Shown piece after piece: positions 1-5,930 of a stretch of 5,930 nt of DNA (position 1 is the first letter of the stretch; every line of letters begins with the position of its first letter). The position numbers and the translations under genes were made by a program. Source of the DNA: Deltaproteobacteria bacterium RBG_13_61_14. GTDB taxonomy: Bacteria > RBG-13-61-14. Where the stretch lies: contig MGQK01000040.1 of the NCBI GenBank assembly GCA_001797815.1, positions 1-5,930 on the forward strand, read 5' to 3'. The notes beneath the pieces are model-generated. The model saw nothing but the letters and a program-made list of their open reading frames with translations. It was not told the DNA's origin and made no database searches.

Positions 1-1053
1 GGCCGGCGGGTGGCGGGTTTCTTCTGCGATTACGTGCCCGAGGAAATCCTCTGGGCCGCCGGCCTCACCCCGATCCGGATCACCGCCGGCCGGGGCAACG
101 TGATCGCGGCTGACAAACACCTGCAGTCCAACGTCTGTTCCTTTGCCCGCGGCTGTTTAGACCAGGCGCTCGAGGGTGTCTATGATTACCTGGACGCCCT
201 GGTCATCCCCCATACCTGCGACGTGATTACCAAGATGTATGACCTGTGGGCCTACCGGCTTCAAGGTCCTTCCTTTATTCATTATGTTTGGGTGCCGCAC
301 AAAGTCTTTGACCCGGACGCGGTCGGGGTCATGTCCGGCGAACTCAAGCGCTTGAAGAAGTGCCTGGAGGAGTGGACCGGCGCGCCGATTCAAGATTCAG
401 CCCTGCAAGAGGCGATCCAGATTTATGACCGAAGCCGGTCTTTGCTCAAGCGGGTGTATGAACTGCGGCGAACCGATCCCCCGCTGATCACCGGCCAGGA
501 AGCGTTTGCGATCGCTTTGAGCGCGCTGCTTTCTCCGAAAGATTTATTCAACCGCTGGGTGGAGGATTTTCTGGCCGAGCGGGAGAGCAAGCCCTCGATC
601 CTGGAGCGCCGGCCCCGGGTAGTGATCTCGGCCTCCGTGCTGGACGACCTGGACTTGGTCCGCGCGATCGAGGAGCCCGGGGCCTGGGTGGTTGCCGATG
701 AGGCCTGCACCGGCAGCCGTTATTTCTGGGACCTGGTGGGCGAGGTCCAAGGGAACCCGATCCCGGCGCTGGTCCGCCGCTACCTGAACAAACTGCCCTG
801 TCCGAGAAGCGTGGGATCTTTGGCCCCGCGCAAAGAACACCTGTTCCACCTGGTCCGCGACTATCAGGCGGACGGCGTCATTTTTTATATTTTACGCTGC
901 TGCGACGCCCACCTGTTCCAGTATCCGATCCTGCACCAGCGTTTACAAAGCGCGGGTTCCCGGATATTATACCTCCAGGGCGACCAGACCGTGGGCGTCA
1001 ATGAGGCGGTCGTGAACCGGATCCAGGCCTTTGTGGAGATTTTGCAGGAATGA
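1..1053 (+). CDS. 2-hydroxyacyl-CoA dehydratase / benzoyl-CoA reductase family protein, subunit C (BcrC/BzdN)-like, 5' partial
   Basis: This is the smaller Fe-S subunit of a ferredoxin-dependent radical enzyme acting on acyl-CoA, either a benzoyl-CoA reductase-type ring reductase or a 2-hydroxyacyl-CoA dehydratase. Numbering from the GTG at 10, residues 5-18 show the family opening FCDYVPEEILWAAG. The likely [4Fe-4S] ligands are C43 (NVCSFARGC), C70 (PHTCD) and C298 (RCCDAHLFQYP), matching the three-cysteine pattern of BcrC/HgdB proteins. The C-terminal LQGDQT-VNRIQAFVE segment is also typical. The GTG at 10 is unlikely to be the start: codons 1-9 are open in frame and homologues carry some 25-40 residues before this motif, so the gene begins upstream. 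It overlaps the next gene by ATGA (1050-1053), as expected for two subunits of one complex. Family is certain; the choice between reductase and dehydratase is inferred from the partner and gene order. Confidence 0.88.
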   Translation, partial: GRRVAGFFCDYVPEEILWAAGLTPIRITAGRGNVIAADKHLQSNVCSFARGCLDQALEGVYDYLDALVIPHTCDVITKMYDLWAYRLQGPSFIHYVWVPHKVFDPDAVGVMSGELKRLKKCLEEWTGAPIQDSALQEAIQIYDRSRSLLKRVYELRRTDPPLITGQEAFAIALSALLSPKDLFNRWVEDFLAERESKPSILERRPRVVISASVLDDLDLVRAIEEPGAWVVADEACTGSRYFWDLVGEVQGNPIPALVRRYLNKLPCPRSVGSLAPRKEHLFHLVRDYQADGVIFYILRCCDAHLFQYPILHQRLQSAGSRILYLQGDQTVGVNEAVVNRIQAFVEILQE

Positions 1054-2384
1054 GCGACGAACTTCACGATCAAGAGGTCAAACAAGCCAACCGGATGCGG
1101 GGCAAGAAGCACCTGCAGACCACCCAGGAGATCTCGCAGATCGTCAAGGACTATTACGAGGAGCGGGCCCGGAAAGGCCGGCAGCCGGGGCAGAAAGTGG
1201 CCTGGTGCGGAGTGGCGGTTCCCAAACCGCCGCTTCAGGCCATGGATGTGCTGGCTTATTATCCGGAGCAGTATGGAACGGTGGTGGCCACCCGGGGCGA
1301 TCCCCATCGGTTCCTCTCGGTGGCCGAAAGCTACGGCCTGAGCCGGGAAATGTGCGGCTATGCCCGGATCACCCTCGGCTACATTCTGGAGGGCCTGCCC
1401 GAGGACGCGCCCCTGGGCGGCATGGCCCGGCCGGACATGCTCATCGTCACCACCGCGGTGTGCGACACCCGGGTCAAGTGGTGGGAGCTGATGGGCGAGC
1501 TCCTTGAGGTGCCGGTCTATATTCTCGAAGCCCCGGAAATGCCGCCCCCCGGCCGAAGCGGCGCGGTCATCTCCGCCGCGGATATGGAGAGCGCGGGCAT
1601 CCAGATCGGCCGGCGGGACGCCCCCCATACCACCCTTTTCGCCGCGCAAAATTACGTGGGCCTCATCAAGTTTCTCGAAGCCCAGTGCGGGAAGCCCATG
1701 GACCAGAAACGCCTCGCCGAGATCAACCAGGCCAGCGCGCGCGTCTCCCGGATCCGGCGCGAGATCAATGAATATCGCAAGGCCATCCCCTGCCCCATGG
1801 GCTCGGCCGACGCCTTTGCCGCCATGTTCCCGGGCATGTATATGCCGGGGACGCCCCTGGCCGATGATTTCTACACCCGGCTCCGGGCCGAGGTGCGCGA
1901 GCGGATGGAGCGGAAGCTCGGGATCATCCCGGAGGAGCGCTACCGGCTGGTCTGGAGCGGGATTCCCTTCTGGTATAACATGGGCCTGCTTAACTACTTC
2001 GAGGAGCGCGGCGGGGTGGTGGTGATTGATACCGCCTACGGCTGCGCAGCCCAGCGAAGCGGCAACCCCAAACGCGAGCCCGGGCGCTGGGGCATCAACG
2101 GCATGGTGGCCTCGGTGATCAAGGCCGTGGTGGACTACAATTGCGACGGCGCGATCCTGTCCTACACCCCCACTTGCCGGGCGCTCTATATCAACCAGCT
2201 CGAGATCCAGAACACCCTGAGGGAAGAACTGGACGTCCCCTCCCTGCTCCTGGAGAGCGACATGGTGGATGCCTCCAGCTTCAGCGAGGCCCAGACCCTG
2301 TCCCGGATTGACGCCTTCATCGAGGTGGTCGAAGAAAAGGCGCGGCGCCGGGGCTGGATGCCGGTTGCAATCGGGCCAAAGTAA
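1050..2384 (+). CDS. Benzoyl-CoA reductase subunit B (BcrB/BzdO)-like, 2-hydroxyacyl-CoA dehydratase family
   Basis: This is the larger Fe-S subunit and presumed partner of the preceding protein; together they would bind the CoA substrate and transfer single electrons at very low potential. The 444 residues match the length of BcrB/BzdO. Three cysteines align with the cluster-binding positions of that family: C102 (MCGYARITLG), C138 (VCDTRVKWWELM) and C376 (TPTCRALYINQLE). Further BcrB-like blocks are EYRK-PCPMGSADAF near 240-255, EERYRLVWSGIPFW near 295, and the C-terminal DMVDASSFSEAQTLSRIDAF. The start ATG at 1050 overlaps the upstream stop by four bases; GGAG at 1035-1038 is a modest ribosome site, so translational coupling is likely. 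Extra cysteines, such as C332 in AYGCAAQR, have no role I can assign. It could serve another acyl-CoA than benzoyl-CoA. Family is secure, substrate unknown. Confidence 0.87.
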   Translation: MSDELHDQEVKQANRMRGKKHLQTTQEISQIVKDYYEERARKGRQPGQKVAWCGVAVPKPPLQAMDVLAYYPEQYGTVVATRGDPHRFLSVAESYGLSREMCGYARITLGYILEGLPEDAPLGGMARPDMLIVTTAVCDTRVKWWELMGELLEVPVYILEAPEMPPPGRSGAVISAADMESAGIQIGRRDAPHTTLFAAQNYVGLIKFLEAQCGKPMDQKRLAEINQASARVSRIRREINEYRKAIPCPMGSADAFAAMFPGMYMPGTPLADDFYTRLRAEVRERMERKLGIIPEERYRLVWSGIPFWYNMGLLNYFEERGGVVVIDTAYGCAAQRSGNPKREPGRWGINGMVASVIKAVVDYNCDGAILSYTPTCRALYINQLEIQNTLREELDVPSLLLESDMVDASSFSEAQTLSRIDAFIEVVEEKARRRGWMPVAIGPK

Positions 2385-2385
2385 G

Positions 2386-4158
2386 ATGGCGAGCTTTATC
2401 AGCAAGGAAGAGTGGAAAGTCTTTGGCCGGCTGAACTTGGCGTTGTTTCGCCTGCTCAAGGGCGAGCGCTCCTGCCCCCGGCTGATTGAAAAATGGGCGC
2501 GGGAAATCCCGGACCGTCCGGCCGTCTTTTTCCAGGACCGGGTGCTGAGCTACCAGAAGCTCAACTCCCTGGCCAACCGGGTGGCCCATCACTTCCTCGG
2601 ACTGGGCGCCCGGCCGGGCGACCTGGTCGCGCTCTACATGGAGAACTGTCCGGAATACCTGGCCCTGATCGCCGGGCTGAACAAGATCGGGGTGGTGGCC
2701 TCCCTGATCAACACCCACCTGCGACAGCATACCCTGGTGCATGCCCTGACCATCTGTTCGCCCCGATGGATCGTGGCCAGCGAAACCCTGGCGCCGGCCC
2801 TGCAAGACGTGGAAGACCAGTCTCCCTTGAAGCGGGATGCCGTCTGGGTATGGGACGGCCAGGCCCCGGCCGGGCAGGAAGGCCAGGACCTGGCAAAAGC
2901 CTTGGCATCCGCTTCGGATGCTCCTCCTCCTCATCCCGCCCGGCCCAAATTCGATGATCACGTGCTCAACATCTACACTTCCGGCACCACCGGCCTGCCC
3001 AAGGCGGCCAAAGTGTCCAACCGGCGATGGTTCTTTTCCGGGTATGCCCTGGGCTATGCCCTGGCCAAGTTTACCTCAGAAGACGTGATTTACGTGCCCC
3101 TGCCCCTTTACCATTCCATCGGCATGTTCGTGGCCTGGGGCAGCGCTTTGGCCACGGGCGCGGCCATCGGGATCAGACGCCGGTTCTCGGCCTCGGAGTT
3201 CTGGCCGGAGGCGAAAAGGTTCGGGGCCACCGGCGCGACCTTTATCGGCGAGATGCCCCGCTACCTTCTCTCCCAGGCCCCCGGCCCCCAGGAGAAAGAC
3301 CACAACATCCGCAAGGTCATCACCGTGGGGCTCCGCGCCAATATCTGGGAGGAATTCCAGAAGCGGTTCGGGATCGAGAAAGTCTTTGAGTTCTACGGCG
3401 CGACCGAGACCTCCGTGGGCATCATGAACGTGGAGGGTCGGCCGGGCATGCTCGGTCGGCTGATGCCGATCCAGGCCGCGGTGGTGAAATGGGACCCGGA
3501 GACCGAGACCCTGGTGCGCAACTCCAAAGGAAGGTGCCTCCCGGTTAAGGAAGGCGAAGAGGGCATGTTACTGGGCAGGGCCAATTCGATTCTTTCCCTG
3601 TTGGGATACGACGGCTATCTGGATGAAGAAGCCAACCGGCAGAAGATGGTCAAGGGCGTGTTCTGGCCCTGGGACGAGTTCTTTATCACCGGCGACGTGG
3701 TCAAGATGCACGAGGACCGCTGGGTGTCGTTTGTGGACCGCTCCGGGGACACCTTTCGCTGGAAGGGCGAGAACGTGGCGACCAAAGAGGTGGAAATCGT
3801 CCTCGACCGCTGTCCCCAGATCCGCGAGATCAGCGTGTATGGGGTGAAGATTCCCGGGCAGGAAGGCGCCGCGGGAATGGCCGCGGTCGTGCTCCGGGGG
3901 GAATGGGACTCGGACCGGATCTCTCGCTATGTCGTGGACAACCTCCCCCACTATGCCCGGCCTCTCTTCCTCCGGCTTTGTCCCGAGCTGCCCGTGACCG
4001 TCACCTGGAAGCACATCAAATATGAGCTCCGAAAAGAGGGTTTCGCCCTCTCCAAGATCAAGGACCCGATTTACTTCTGGGACCGCCAGGCCAGCCGATA
4101 CCTCCCTTTGGATGAAGATTTATATGCGGATATAATCGGCGGAAATGTGAAACTGTAA
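2386..4158 (+). CDS. AMP-forming acyl-CoA synthetase, FATP / very-long-chain type
   Basis: It adenylates a carboxylic acid with ATP and transfers the acyl group to CoA, probably making the CoA ester used by this operon. The 590 residues show the ANL-superfamily order: N-terminal domain with the FATP-like RPAVFFQDRVLSYQKLNSLANR region near 45; P-loop YTSGTTGLPKAAK at 197-209; FYGATET at 336-342; TGD at 435-437; the FATP signature DRSGDTFRWKGENV at 451-464; and the C-terminal TWKHIK with probable catalytic K542. The ending, with an IKDPIYFWD block and LPLDEDLYADI, is also FATP-like, unlike benzoate-CoA ligases. ATG at 2386 lies one base after the previous stop. The same frame is open back to 2269, but that part overlaps the upstream gene and lacks family similarity. 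No clear Shine-Dalgarno is seen, so coupling is likely. Chemistry is confident; the substrate cannot be read and could be fatty, aryl-alkyl or alicyclic. Confidence 0.9.
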   Translation: MASFISKEEWKVFGRLNLALFRLLKGERSCPRLIEKWAREIPDRPAVFFQDRVLSYQKLNSLANRVAHHFLGLGARPGDLVALYMENCPEYLALIAGLNKIGVVASLINTHLRQHTLVHALTICSPRWIVASETLAPALQDVEDQSPLKRDAVWVWDGQAPAGQEGQDLAKALASASDAPPPHPARPKFDDHVLNIYTSGTTGLPKAAKVSNRRWFFSGYALGYALAKFTSEDVIYVPLPLYHSIGMFVAWGSALATGAAIGIRRRFSASEFWPEAKRFGATGATFIGEMPRYLLSQAPGPQEKDHNIRKVITVGLRANIWEEFQKRFGIEKVFEFYGATETSVGIMNVEGRPGMLGRLMPIQAAVVKWDPETETLVRNSKGRCLPVKEGEEGMLLGRANSILSLLGYDGYLDEEANRQKMVKGVFWPWDEFFITGDVVKMHEDRWVSFVDRSGDTFRWKGENVATKEVEIVLDRCPQIREISVYGVKIPGQEGAAGMAAVVLRGEWDSDRISRYVVDNLPHYARPLFLRLCPELPVTVTWKHIKYELRKEGFALSKIKDPIYFWDRQASRYLPLDEDLYADIIGGNVKL

Positions 4159-4166
4159 GAGGAAGG
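4159..4166 (+). promoter_or_regulatory. Ribosome binding site for the ferredoxin-like subunit gene
   Basis: GAGGAAGG begins directly after the ligase stop codon and lies 12 bases before the ATG at 4179. The match to the 16S anti-Shine-Dalgarno is strong but the spacing is on the long side. It is the only good ribosome site in the 20-base gap and supports the ATG at 4179. Confidence 0.6.
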
Positions 4167-4178
4167 ATCTCAGGACTG

Positions 4179-4409
4179 ATGACGGCTGAATTCGTGGTTG
4201 AAATTGATGAGAAGCGGTGCAAAGGCTGCGCGATCTGCGTCGCGGTTTGCCCCAAGCAATGTCTGGCCATCCAGGATAACTACAACCCCTCGGGTTATTT
4301 TTATCCGGCGCTGAAGCCGGACGCGGATTGCACCGGCTGCGGGGCCTGCGTGAAACTGTGTCCGGATTTTGCGGTCACGGTCTATGAACTCCTCGAGCAA
4401 GCCGGCTGA
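4179..4409 (+). CDS. korD: 2x[4Fe-4S] ferredoxin-like delta subunit of 2-oxoacid:ferredoxin oxidoreductase (KorD/VorD-type)
   Basis: This small cytoplasmic electron carrier of 76 residues should take electrons from the catalytic subunits of a 2-oxoacid oxidoreductase and pass them to ferredoxin. Two classical CxxCxxCxxxCP motifs are present: C14, C17, C20, C24 (CKGCAICVAVCP) and C51, C54, C57, C61 (CTGCGACVKLCP). Each should bind one [4Fe-4S] cluster. The start VEIDEKRCKGC and the extended linker between motifs, with a GYFYPAL segment near 39-45, are typical of KorD-type subunits. The gene stands immediately before the alpha and beta subunit genes, the usual order in four-subunit enzymes. A free-standing ferredoxin serving the Bcr-like pair is a possible alternative, but position and length favour a delta subunit. 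The symbol is a family name and does not prove 2-oxoglutarate as substrate. Confidence 0.88.
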   Translation: MTAEFVVEIDEKRCKGCAICVAVCPKQCLAIQDNYNPSGYFYPALKPDADCTGCGACVKLCPDFAVTVYELLEQAG

Positions 4410-4423
4410 GGCCGCCCGTTAGC

Positions 4424-4429
4424 AGGAAG
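4424..4429 (+). promoter_or_regulatory. Ribosome binding site for the alpha subunit gene
   Basis: AGGAAG lies five bases before the ATG at 4435. Another ATG at 4430 directly abuts this motif and is in a different frame, so spacing and the conserved protein N-terminus both choose 4435. Confidence 0.6.
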
Positions 4430-4434
4430 ATGAA

Positions 4435-5508
4435 ATGAGCCCGAAAAGAATTTTGACCACCGGCAACGAGGCGATCGGCTATGGAGCCATCGCCGCGGGA
4501 TGCCGGTTCTTTTGCGGCTACCCGATTACTCCCCAAAACGAGATCCCGGCGTTCTTCGCCCAAGAACTGCCCAAGCACGGCGGGACCTTTGTCCAGACCG
4601 AGAGCGAGATCTCCTCGATCAACATGCTCCTGGGAGTGGCGGCTACCGGCATGCGCGGGATCACCAGCACCTCCAGCCCCGGCTTTTCCCTGATGCAGGA
4701 GGGAATGTCCGCCATTCATGCCCTGCAACTGCCCGCGGTGGTCGTCAACGTCCAGCGGGGCGGACCCGGCTCCGGATCCATTGCCAGCGCCCAGACCGAT
4801 TACCTGCTGGCCACCAAGAGCGCCGGCCACGGCGGCGTGAAAAGCATTGTGCTCGCCCCGGCCTCGGTCCAGGAATGCCACGATCTGGTTCAACTCGCCT
4901 TCTTCCTCGCCGATAAACACCGGACCCTGGCCGTGGTCCTTCCCGACGCCATCATCGGCCAGAGCGCGGAGCTCCTGGAAATCTCGACCCTGGCCTTCGG
5001 GGAACTCCCGAAAAAGACCTGGGCGCTCCGCGGCTCCGCGGAAAAAAAGGGCGTGCGCATCGTCATGGACTCCTACATGCCCTTCAACTACGGGGCCTAT
5101 TTCCAGAGCCTGCGCAAGAAAGTGGAACAGATCGAGGCCCAGGAGGTCCGGTTTGAGGGCCGCTTCCTGGAAGACGCGGAGGTGCTGGTGGTTTCCTGGG
5201 GATCCACGGCCCGAACCTCCCTCGAAGCCATCCAGCAAGCCCGGACCCAGGGCCTCCGGGTCGGCCTGTTCCGGCCCATCACCTTGTATCCCTTCCCCAA
5301 GGCCGCGCTTCAAGCCGCCGCGGCCCAGGCCAAGAAGGTCCTGGTGGTGGAAGACAACCAGGGACAGATGCTCTATGACGTGGAGTGGGCGCTGGGGCGG
5401 GAGATTCCGATCTCGTTTTTGGGAATTGAAAAGCGAGACCTCACCAGCGGCATGGGTCTGTTGTATCCGCAACCGGTGTTGGATGAAATCCAGAGGTTGG
5501 CGTCATGA
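4435..5508 (+). CDS. vorB: 2-oxoacid:ferredoxin oxidoreductase alpha subunit, VorB/KorA family
   Basis: This subunit of a TPP-dependent, CoA-acylating 2-oxoacid oxidoreductase works with the beta subunit: 2-oxoacid + CoA + oxidised ferredoxin gives acyl-CoA + CO2 + reduced ferredoxin. Its 357 residues match the stand-alone VorB length of about 350. The N-terminal domain carries GNEAIGYGAIAAG at 10-22 and GYPITP at 28-33. By analogy with pyruvate:ferredoxin oxidoreductase, T32 and R108 (QRGGPGSG) are likely substrate-binding residues. The TESE motif at 55-58 is where the TPP-activating glutamate is expected. ATSTSSPG-type and LAPASVQE blocks follow, and the C-terminal domain has FRPITLYPFP and VVEDNQGQM. 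It overlaps the beta gene by ATGA. The sequence resembles VorB more than 2-oxoglutarate-specific KorA, but names in this family predict substrate poorly; branched, aryl and dicarboxylic 2-oxoacids all remain possible. Confidence 0.9.
   Translation: MSPKRILTTGNEAIGYGAIAAGCRFFCGYPITPQNEIPAFFAQELPKHGGTFVQTESEISSINMLLGVAATGMRGITSTSSPGFSLMQEGMSAIHALQLPAVVVNVQRGGPGSGSIASAQTDYLLATKSAGHGGVKSIVLAPASVQECHDLVQLAFFLADKHRTLAVVLPDAIIGQSAELLEISTLAFGELPKKTWALRGSAEKKGVRIVMDSYMPFNYGAYFQSLRKKVEQIEAQEVRFEGRFLEDAEVLVVSWGSTARTSLEAIQQARTQGLRVGLFRPITLYPFPKAALQAAAAQAKKVLVVEDNQGQMLYDVEWALGREIPISFLGIEKRDLTSGMGLLYPQPVLDEIQRLAS
5492..5496 (+). promoter_or_regulatory. Ribosome binding site for the beta subunit gene
   Basis: AGAGG inside the end of the alpha gene lies eight bases before the ATG at 5505. 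Together with the ATGA stop-start overlap it supports that start and coupled translation of alpha and beta. Confidence 0.55.
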
Positions 5509-5930
5509 AAGAAAAGAAAGTCAAGCACGGGCCTCCCGCCCTGTTTAATTCCATGATGCAACCCCATTTTTGCCCGGGATGCCATTACGGGATCATCTTG
5601 CACTGTTTCATGGAGGCGCTGGAGCAAACCGGAGTGGCGGGACAATCCATCCTGGTCACCGGCATCGGGTGCAGCATGGTCAGCGCCCACTACATCAAAG
5701 GGATCGAGGGCCTGGTAGCCCTGCACGGCCGGGCGCCGGCGGTAGCCACCGGCCTGAAGCGGGCGCTGGGCAAGGAAAAGCTGATCTTCACCATGCAGGG
5801 CGACGGGGATCTCTCCGCCATCGGGATGGGCGAGATTATCGCCGCGGCCGGCCGCTTCGAGAAGCTGACCACCCTGTTCCTGAACAACGCCAACTTCGGC
5901 ACCACCGGCGGACAGATGGCACCCACCACC
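5505..5930 (+). CDS. korB: 2-oxoacid:ferredoxin oxidoreductase beta subunit (KorB/VorA-type, TPP-binding), 3' partial
   Basis: This catalytic subunit holds thiamine diphosphate and the proximal Fe-S cluster. Only the first 142 codons are in the window, open to the edge. The N-terminus has C23 and C26 in FCPGCHYG and C56 in GIGCS. In archaeal homologues three cysteines at nearly the same spacing, plus a fourth nearer the C-terminus, bind a [4Fe-4S] cluster; the fourth would be beyond the window. HGRAPAVATG at 74-83 is a family block. The TPP/Mg motif runs from GDGD at 99-102 to NN at 127-128, followed by FGTTGGQMAPTT, as in KorB/VorA proteins. The ATG at 5505 overlaps the alpha stop. Family usual length is about 250-290 residues, so roughly half is missing. 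A gamma subunit gene is expected next (inference). Substrate is not readable. Confidence 0.9.
   Translation, partial: MKEKKVKHGPPALFNSMMQPHFCPGCHYGIILHCFMEALEQTGVAGQSILVTGIGCSMVSAHYIKGIEGLVALHGRAPAVATGLKRALGKEKLIFTMQGDGDLSAIGMGEIIAAAGRFEKLTTLFLNNANFGTTGGQMAPTT

Follow-up and report, generated by a model that had tools for sequence, protein, structure and literature searches.

A BzdNO-like protein pair encoded with lipid-type CoA ligases and a 2-oxoacid:ferredoxin oxidoreductase in a predicted deltaproteobacterial operon

Enzymes of the benzoyl-CoA reductase/2-hydroxyacyl-CoA dehydratase (BCR/HAD) family need an ATP-driven activase, and a stretch of DNA from Deltaproteobacteria bacterium RBG_13_61_14 raises the question of what such an enzyme does when its genes lie beside those of a possible ferredoxin supply. 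This stretch (hereafter the window) covers positions 1-5,930 of contig MGQK01000040.1 (C40) of a 4.7-Mb genome. The initial annotation described it as a Bcr-like pair, a ligase and a separate-subunit 2-oxoacid:ferredoxin oxidoreductase (VOR) in one run of genes, and this gene reading holds, with highly significant matches for all six open reading frames. It further proposed that the run is a self-contained cassette in which oxidation of a 2-oxoacid drives a reductive or dehydrating step. By the tests available, sequence comparison identifies the pair as BzdNO-like in architecture and not as a benzoyl-CoA reductase. We tentatively favour the view that the genes belong to an operon for a class I BCR-type enzyme that reduces an acyl-CoA at low potential and at the expense of ATP, with VOR as its electron supply and an activase provided in trans.

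Cluster ligands of the two subunits

The best PDB match of the small subunit was BzdN (8s02_B, E 7e-51), from the BZD-type class I BCR of Aromatoleum (BzdNOPQ). In PMC11971306 the [8Fe-9S] double cubane of BzdN is reported to be bound by six cysteines, with Arg53, Arg267 and His330 close by. The small subunit has all six cysteines of this type (C35, C72, C99, C262, C293 and C327 in full-length numbering), aligned with BzdN C36, C73, C100, C263, C293 and C327, numbers that were assigned by conservation; its R52, R266 and H330 align with R53, R267 and H330 of BzdN. All six cysteines are also common to the double-cubane protein DCCP, whose model was the subunit's top NCBIfam match yet remained below cut-off. 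DCCP differs in being a homodimer with two double cubanes, as described in PMC11971306, whereas the window encodes a predicted heterodimer with three conserved cluster cysteines in the large subunit. Taken together, the six cysteines with R52, R266 and H330 are the strongest evidence that the small subunit may serve as a reductase-type electron store.

This signature bears on a second reading, in which the pair is a 2-hydroxyacyl-CoA dehydratase. Here a PanE-like (ketopantoate-reductase-like) enzyme encoded upstream would make the (R)-2-hydroxyacid from a 2-oxoacid, its CoA ester would be formed by a ligase, and the HGD-D pair would dehydrate this ester to the enoyl-CoA, with VOR as an oxidative branch acting on the same 2-oxoacid. 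The small subunit of (R)-2-hydroxyisocaproyl-CoA dehydratase (HadBC) belongs to the same fold family, but in HadC the equivalents of C35 and C262 are replaced by Pro and Ala, and Arg52 and His330 are absent too; HADs have lost the double cubane, as PMC11971306 states. The window's small subunit is not of this single-cluster kind, since its distal cysteines are all present, and the full set favours an ATP-dependent reductase over a dehydratase. MbdN, of the 3-methylbenzoyl-CoA reductase MbdNO, lacks the three distal cysteines. A lone HGD-D protein on contig C65 (L013 7427-8560) has kept the three proximal cysteines and lost the distal three.

Both subunits carry the HGD-D domain of the BCR/HAD family, each with three cluster cysteines. 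In the large subunit C102, C138 and C376 correspond to BzdO C95/C128/C380, which according to PMC11971306 bind a [4Fe-4S]-OH2 cluster accompanied by Glu65 and His131. E73 occupies the position of Glu65, and W52, Y104 and Y330 those of Trp46, Tyr97 and Tyr298. The three cysteines are shared with HadB, as is the glutamate (Glu55 there), and a CR motif after the third cluster cysteine is shared with MbdNO of the same family.

A predicted operon and a possible ferredoxin supply

The proposal of a self-contained cassette did not survive inspection of the ends of the window, which opens inside the small-subunit gene at the contig end and closes at a run of N (5931-6078). Searching the genome with the opening 120 bases of C40 gave a 68-base exact match on the other strand of contig C20, at its end. 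Joining the two contigs yields a 376-residue small subunit with a start codon at -77, overlapping the upstream stop by four bases; the join is based on this overlap and on frame continuity, not on reads. It brings a 611-residue second ligase, the PanE-like gene and a crotonase exceeding the PRK06142 cut-off into the same run, in this order upstream and on the same strand, as called outside the window by a simple codon-usage caller. Farther upstream on C20 lie genes for a thioesterase, a methylmalonyl-CoA-epimerase-like protein, a thiolase and an acyl-CoA dehydrogenase. Beyond the run of N, C40 encodes the gamma subunit VorG (ending at 6665), outside the window and with an apparent four-base overlap at the VorB/VorG joint, followed after a 237-base gap by two FabK/NMO-like flavoproteins.

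Table 1. Genes of the window, with the matches on which their assignment rests
Feature	Position	Strand	Basis
BCR/HAD-family small subunit (BzdN/DCCP-like)	1..1053	+	5' end cut at contig end; PF06050 E 4.7e-86
BCR/HAD-family large (active-site) subunit	1050..2384	+	PF06050 E 1.5e-53; HadB/BzdO/MbdO alignments
AMP-forming very-long-chain acyl-CoA ligase (FATP/FadD6-like)	2386..4158	+	PRK08279, FATP2
VorD/OorD-type 2x[4Fe-4S] ferredoxin subunit	4179..4409	+	Fer4 families; OorD E 1.8e-13
VorA, 2-oxoacid:ferredoxin oxidoreductase alpha subunit	4435..5508	+	PRK07119 E 1e-118; POR_N E 2.5e-44
VorB, beta (thiamine pyrophosphate, TPP) subunit	5505..5930	+	cut by N-run; PorB_KorB E 1.8e-24

Within the window the genes are separated by -4, +1, +20, +25 and -4 bases, and in the joined run from the PanE-like gene to VorB by 10, -4, -4, 1, 20, 25 and -4 bases. 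Gaps of -4 to 25 bases on one strand are operon spacing; promoter and terminator scans gave signals at the level of shuffled sequence. The run from the PanE-like dehydrogenase to VorG (about -2882 to 6665 in joined coordinates) is thus most likely a single, co-transcribed operon with the predicted order PanE-like, CoA ligase 1, small subunit, large subunit, FATP-like ligase, VorD, VorA, VorB, VorG, and the window its middle. This operon most likely sits in a larger acyl-CoA catabolic cluster, judged by the neighbouring crotonases, thiolase, acyl-CoA dehydrogenase and FabK/NMO-like flavoenzymes.

The oxidoreductase is of the VOR type, with separate delta, alpha, beta and gamma subunits, the beta subunit being interrupted by the run of N. 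VorA scored 395.8 bits against its model PRK07119 (named VorB in NCBIfam), just below the cut-off of 399. The run holds 148 N, too short for the missing VorB C-terminus of about 110 residues (relatives have about 255-260), so that the number of N is nominal or some bases have dropped out. The precedent on which the initial annotation drew is real: in Thauera aromatica the BCR is served by KorAB, a 2-oxoglutarate:ferredoxin oxidoreductase, and two R. palustris strains carry korAB in their benzoate clusters (PMC9973337). The present locus shares with Thauera a 2-oxoacid:ferredoxin oxidoreductase of a kind that can feed a BCR and differs in its four-subunit VorDABG and in a lipid-type cluster that lacks the benzoyl-CoA lower pathway. 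The suggested dedicated electron loop stands in part, in that a co-encoded ferredoxin supply fits the operon layout and the double-cubane ligands favour its reductive form, but the loop is not self-contained.

A third reading, which we regard as unlikely, treats the operon as a loose assembly in which genes for lipid activation and beta-oxidation, the pair and VOR share a transcript and act in separate steps, VOR oxidising a branched-chain 2-oxoacid late in the breakdown of branched lipids. VOR occurs three times in the genome, each time at a different place, which would suit such an arrangement. Against it stand the tight spacing of the run, with overlaps of four bases and gaps of 1-25, and the KorAB/BCR clusters, where such linkage can be functional.

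Substrate, activase and the reductase reading

The window ligase scored 637 bits against PRK08279 (cut-off 625) and is of the FATP/FadD6-like very-long-chain type. Its top PDB match was human FATP2 (E 8e-115), compared with E about 1e-15 for benzoate-CoA ligase structures, and on these values a benzoate or other aromatic-acid ligase was rejected. The second ligase had steroid-22-oyl-CoA synthetase as its top NCBIfam model, below cut-off. The ring-opening hydrolase Oah (TIGR03200) was not found over cut-off in the draft genome (132 contigs, 95% complete), where absent genes may sit in gaps; its best match reached 99 of the 464 bits required, which makes benzoyl-CoA degradation unlikely. Because no ring hydrolase passed the cut-off and the ligases are very-long-chain- or steroid-like, the substrate of the pair is probably not benzoyl-CoA.

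For the same genome, an ATPase activase (PF01869) was absent from the joined C20 and C40 contigs, about 55 kb in all (about 18 kb upstream and 38 kb downstream), nor did two of the genome's own activases, used as tblastn queries, match anything there; if the join is right, there is no room for absent genes between the two contigs. The self-contained cassette was rejected on this ground too, and the pair presumably has to share an activase in trans. PF01869 matches occur on contigs C45, C73, C21, C24, C106 and C22, those on C45, C73 and C21 being activases. The C45 gene was rejected as a neighbour of the window: it is solitary, mid-contig, and beside a DUF362-ferredoxin gene. At this locus (L045 12296-14148) the activase is BzdQ-like and the DUF362-type neighbour contains a ferredoxin domain; the activase is a candidate for serving the pair in trans.

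On the reductase reading, the PanE-like enzyme might make a 2-oxoacid from a 2-hydroxyacid, and the co-transcribed VOR would oxidise this 2-oxoacid and reduce ferredoxin. An activase from elsewhere would spend ATP to lift the electrons to the [8Fe-9S] double cubane of the small subunit, from which they would pass to the [4Fe-4S] cluster of the large subunit. There the ligases' product, a lipid- or steroid-like acyl-CoA that is conjugated or for another reason hard to reduce, would be reduced and then enter beta-oxidation via the genes of the cluster. Besides the cluster ligands, this reading has in its favour the lipid-type ligases, the tight spacing, the KorAB precedent and the two activase genes behind the pair in distant relatives.

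Several findings weigh against it. Where BzdO has His131, the proposed acid/base residue, the large subunit has R141, and I305 stands in place of Gln274; BzdO combines Glu65 with His131, and here the glutamate alone is kept. R141 is invariant among the close relatives of the large subunit, although a motif containing it was among those used to find some of them. The best PDB match of the large subunit was HadB rather than BzdO. The scores of the pair all fall far short of the curated BCR, HAD and DCCP cut-offs (BzdN model 168 against 454 bits, BzdO 92 against 449, HadB and HadC 138 against 750 and 171 against 700), and identity to the BZD-type enzyme is low. No PQ activase genes lie nearby, VOR stands beside the pair in no other genome found, and the PanE-like neighbour fits a 2-hydroxyacyl-CoA route equally well.

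The dehydratase reading gains from two of these points, the HadB match and the PanE-like gene in the same run. One PDB match of the PanE-like protein, 3wfi/5x20, is a D-2-hydroxyacid dehydrogenase of Enterococcus, and in a Myxococcota metagenome-assembled genome (MAG) that carries the pair too (G388), VorDABG is followed, as an independent VOR/PanE neighbourhood, by a PanE-like gene with 36% identity to that of the operon (L072, contig C826 223-4190). However, HadB Ser37 is replaced by Val in the large subunit, and the operon encodes ATP-dependent very-long-chain ligases and no CoA-transferase. We consider this route possible but rather improbable. It corresponds to the amino-acid-type fermentation offered as an alternative by the initial annotation, which the PanE-like neighbour suits, but the six-cysteine signature and ligases in place of a CoA-transferase do not.

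A fourth reading is anaerobic alpha-oxidation, in which the pair would add water to an enoyl-CoA, the resulting 2-hydroxyacyl-CoA would be converted to the 2-oxoacid by a thioesterase together with the PanE-like enzyme, and VOR would decarboxylate this 2-oxoacid to an acyl-CoA one carbon shorter, bypassing a 3-methyl block. The cluster has a gene for each type of activity concerned (acyl-CoA dehydrogenase, thioesterase, PanE-like enzyme, VOR and lipid ligases), and a paralogous locus encodes a 2-hydroxyacyl-CoA-lyase/benzaldehyde-lyase-like enzyme. Nevertheless, the double-cubane signature points to a reductase, the thioesterase and acyl-CoA dehydrogenase genes lie outside the tight operon, and a search of one literature library for the same gene set or for anaerobic alpha-oxidation returned no description of such a pathway and nothing else relevant. 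We regard this reading as highly improbable.

A bolder form of the reductase reading, which we advance as speculation of low probability, is that ATP-dependent acyl-CoA reductases with a double cubane include a new subfamily, represented by this pair, in which Arg replaces the active-site His of BCR. Such enzymes would act on very-long-chain, isoprenoid or steroid-like acyl-CoAs, would draw electrons from a co-transcribed 2-oxoacid:ferredoxin system, and would use in trans an activase that also serves the genome's other family members. A rare related pair with an altered active-site residue, and with a ferredoxin supply encoded beside it in a lipid-type operon, would offer a second testable catabolic use of the double cubane, and would show how such enzymes are wired to electron donors and shared activases.

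Relatives and neighbouring genes

Conservation in other genomes, proposed as a check on the cassette, proved mostly negative. At the thresholds used, the large subunit was found in 4 of 386 sampled genomes (drawn as relatives, host included) and in 2 of the 395 genomes scanned from the phylum of one relative; two other genomes of the host's order were in the compared set. A first genome-contig scan with a single-sequence query gave no match, and the whole cassette was absent from the 386 relative genomes, the 395 phylum genomes and seven loci from the genome-contig scan. The only close relative, in genome G026, has 63% identity in the large and 49% in the small subunit. Its pair stands alone, the 20 kb inspected holding none of activase, ligase and VOR, and the VOR of G026 is at a separate locus; this, and a neighbourhood that is not conserved, would suit the loose assembly of separate steps.

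Distant relatives (large subunit about 36-41% identical) were found in MAGs of Nitrospinota, Desulfobacteraceae and Myxococcota. These keep the pair together with activases, with two different activase genes behind it where the contig allows, as in class I BCRs. At two of the loci (L041 and L042) a ligase lies immediately upstream of the pair, and VOR was seen at no relative's pair locus. Trees grouped the window's pair with the G026 relative; the deep nodes joining BzdN, DCCP and HadC were weak because of long branches. AlphaFold models of the two subunits, made from 6-7 sequences, had a mean pLDDT of only 57 and 62, too low to be relied on.

A three-gene module occurs twice, flanking the operon, at joined positions -6661..-4077 on the minus strand (L050 4146-6730) and at L009 8994-11449 on the plus strand. 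It encodes an APH-type kinase, a protein of about 165 residues and a DUF7064/7065 protein, one copy of which is Rv3169-like. The best PDB matches of the downstream APH-type kinase include the structures of ACAD11 and 3ats.

Further family members occur in this and other genomes. A second BCR/HAD pair with a six-cysteine small subunit lies 9 kb downstream on C40, beside a GMC oxidoreductase (L009 15466-17920 and 18772-19998). Its paralogue on C73 (L011 4210-11650) has 49% identity in both subunits and is accompanied by a GMC oxidoreductase, an activase and a TPP enzyme resembling benzaldehyde lyase and 2-hydroxyacyl-CoA lyase. Tandem large-subunit genes occur in genome G034 (L030 8788-11718), on a 13-kb contig where no small subunit or activase was recognised. 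A Desulfobacteraceae MAG carries two full sets, each a pair plus two activases, back to back (L040 5210-14078).

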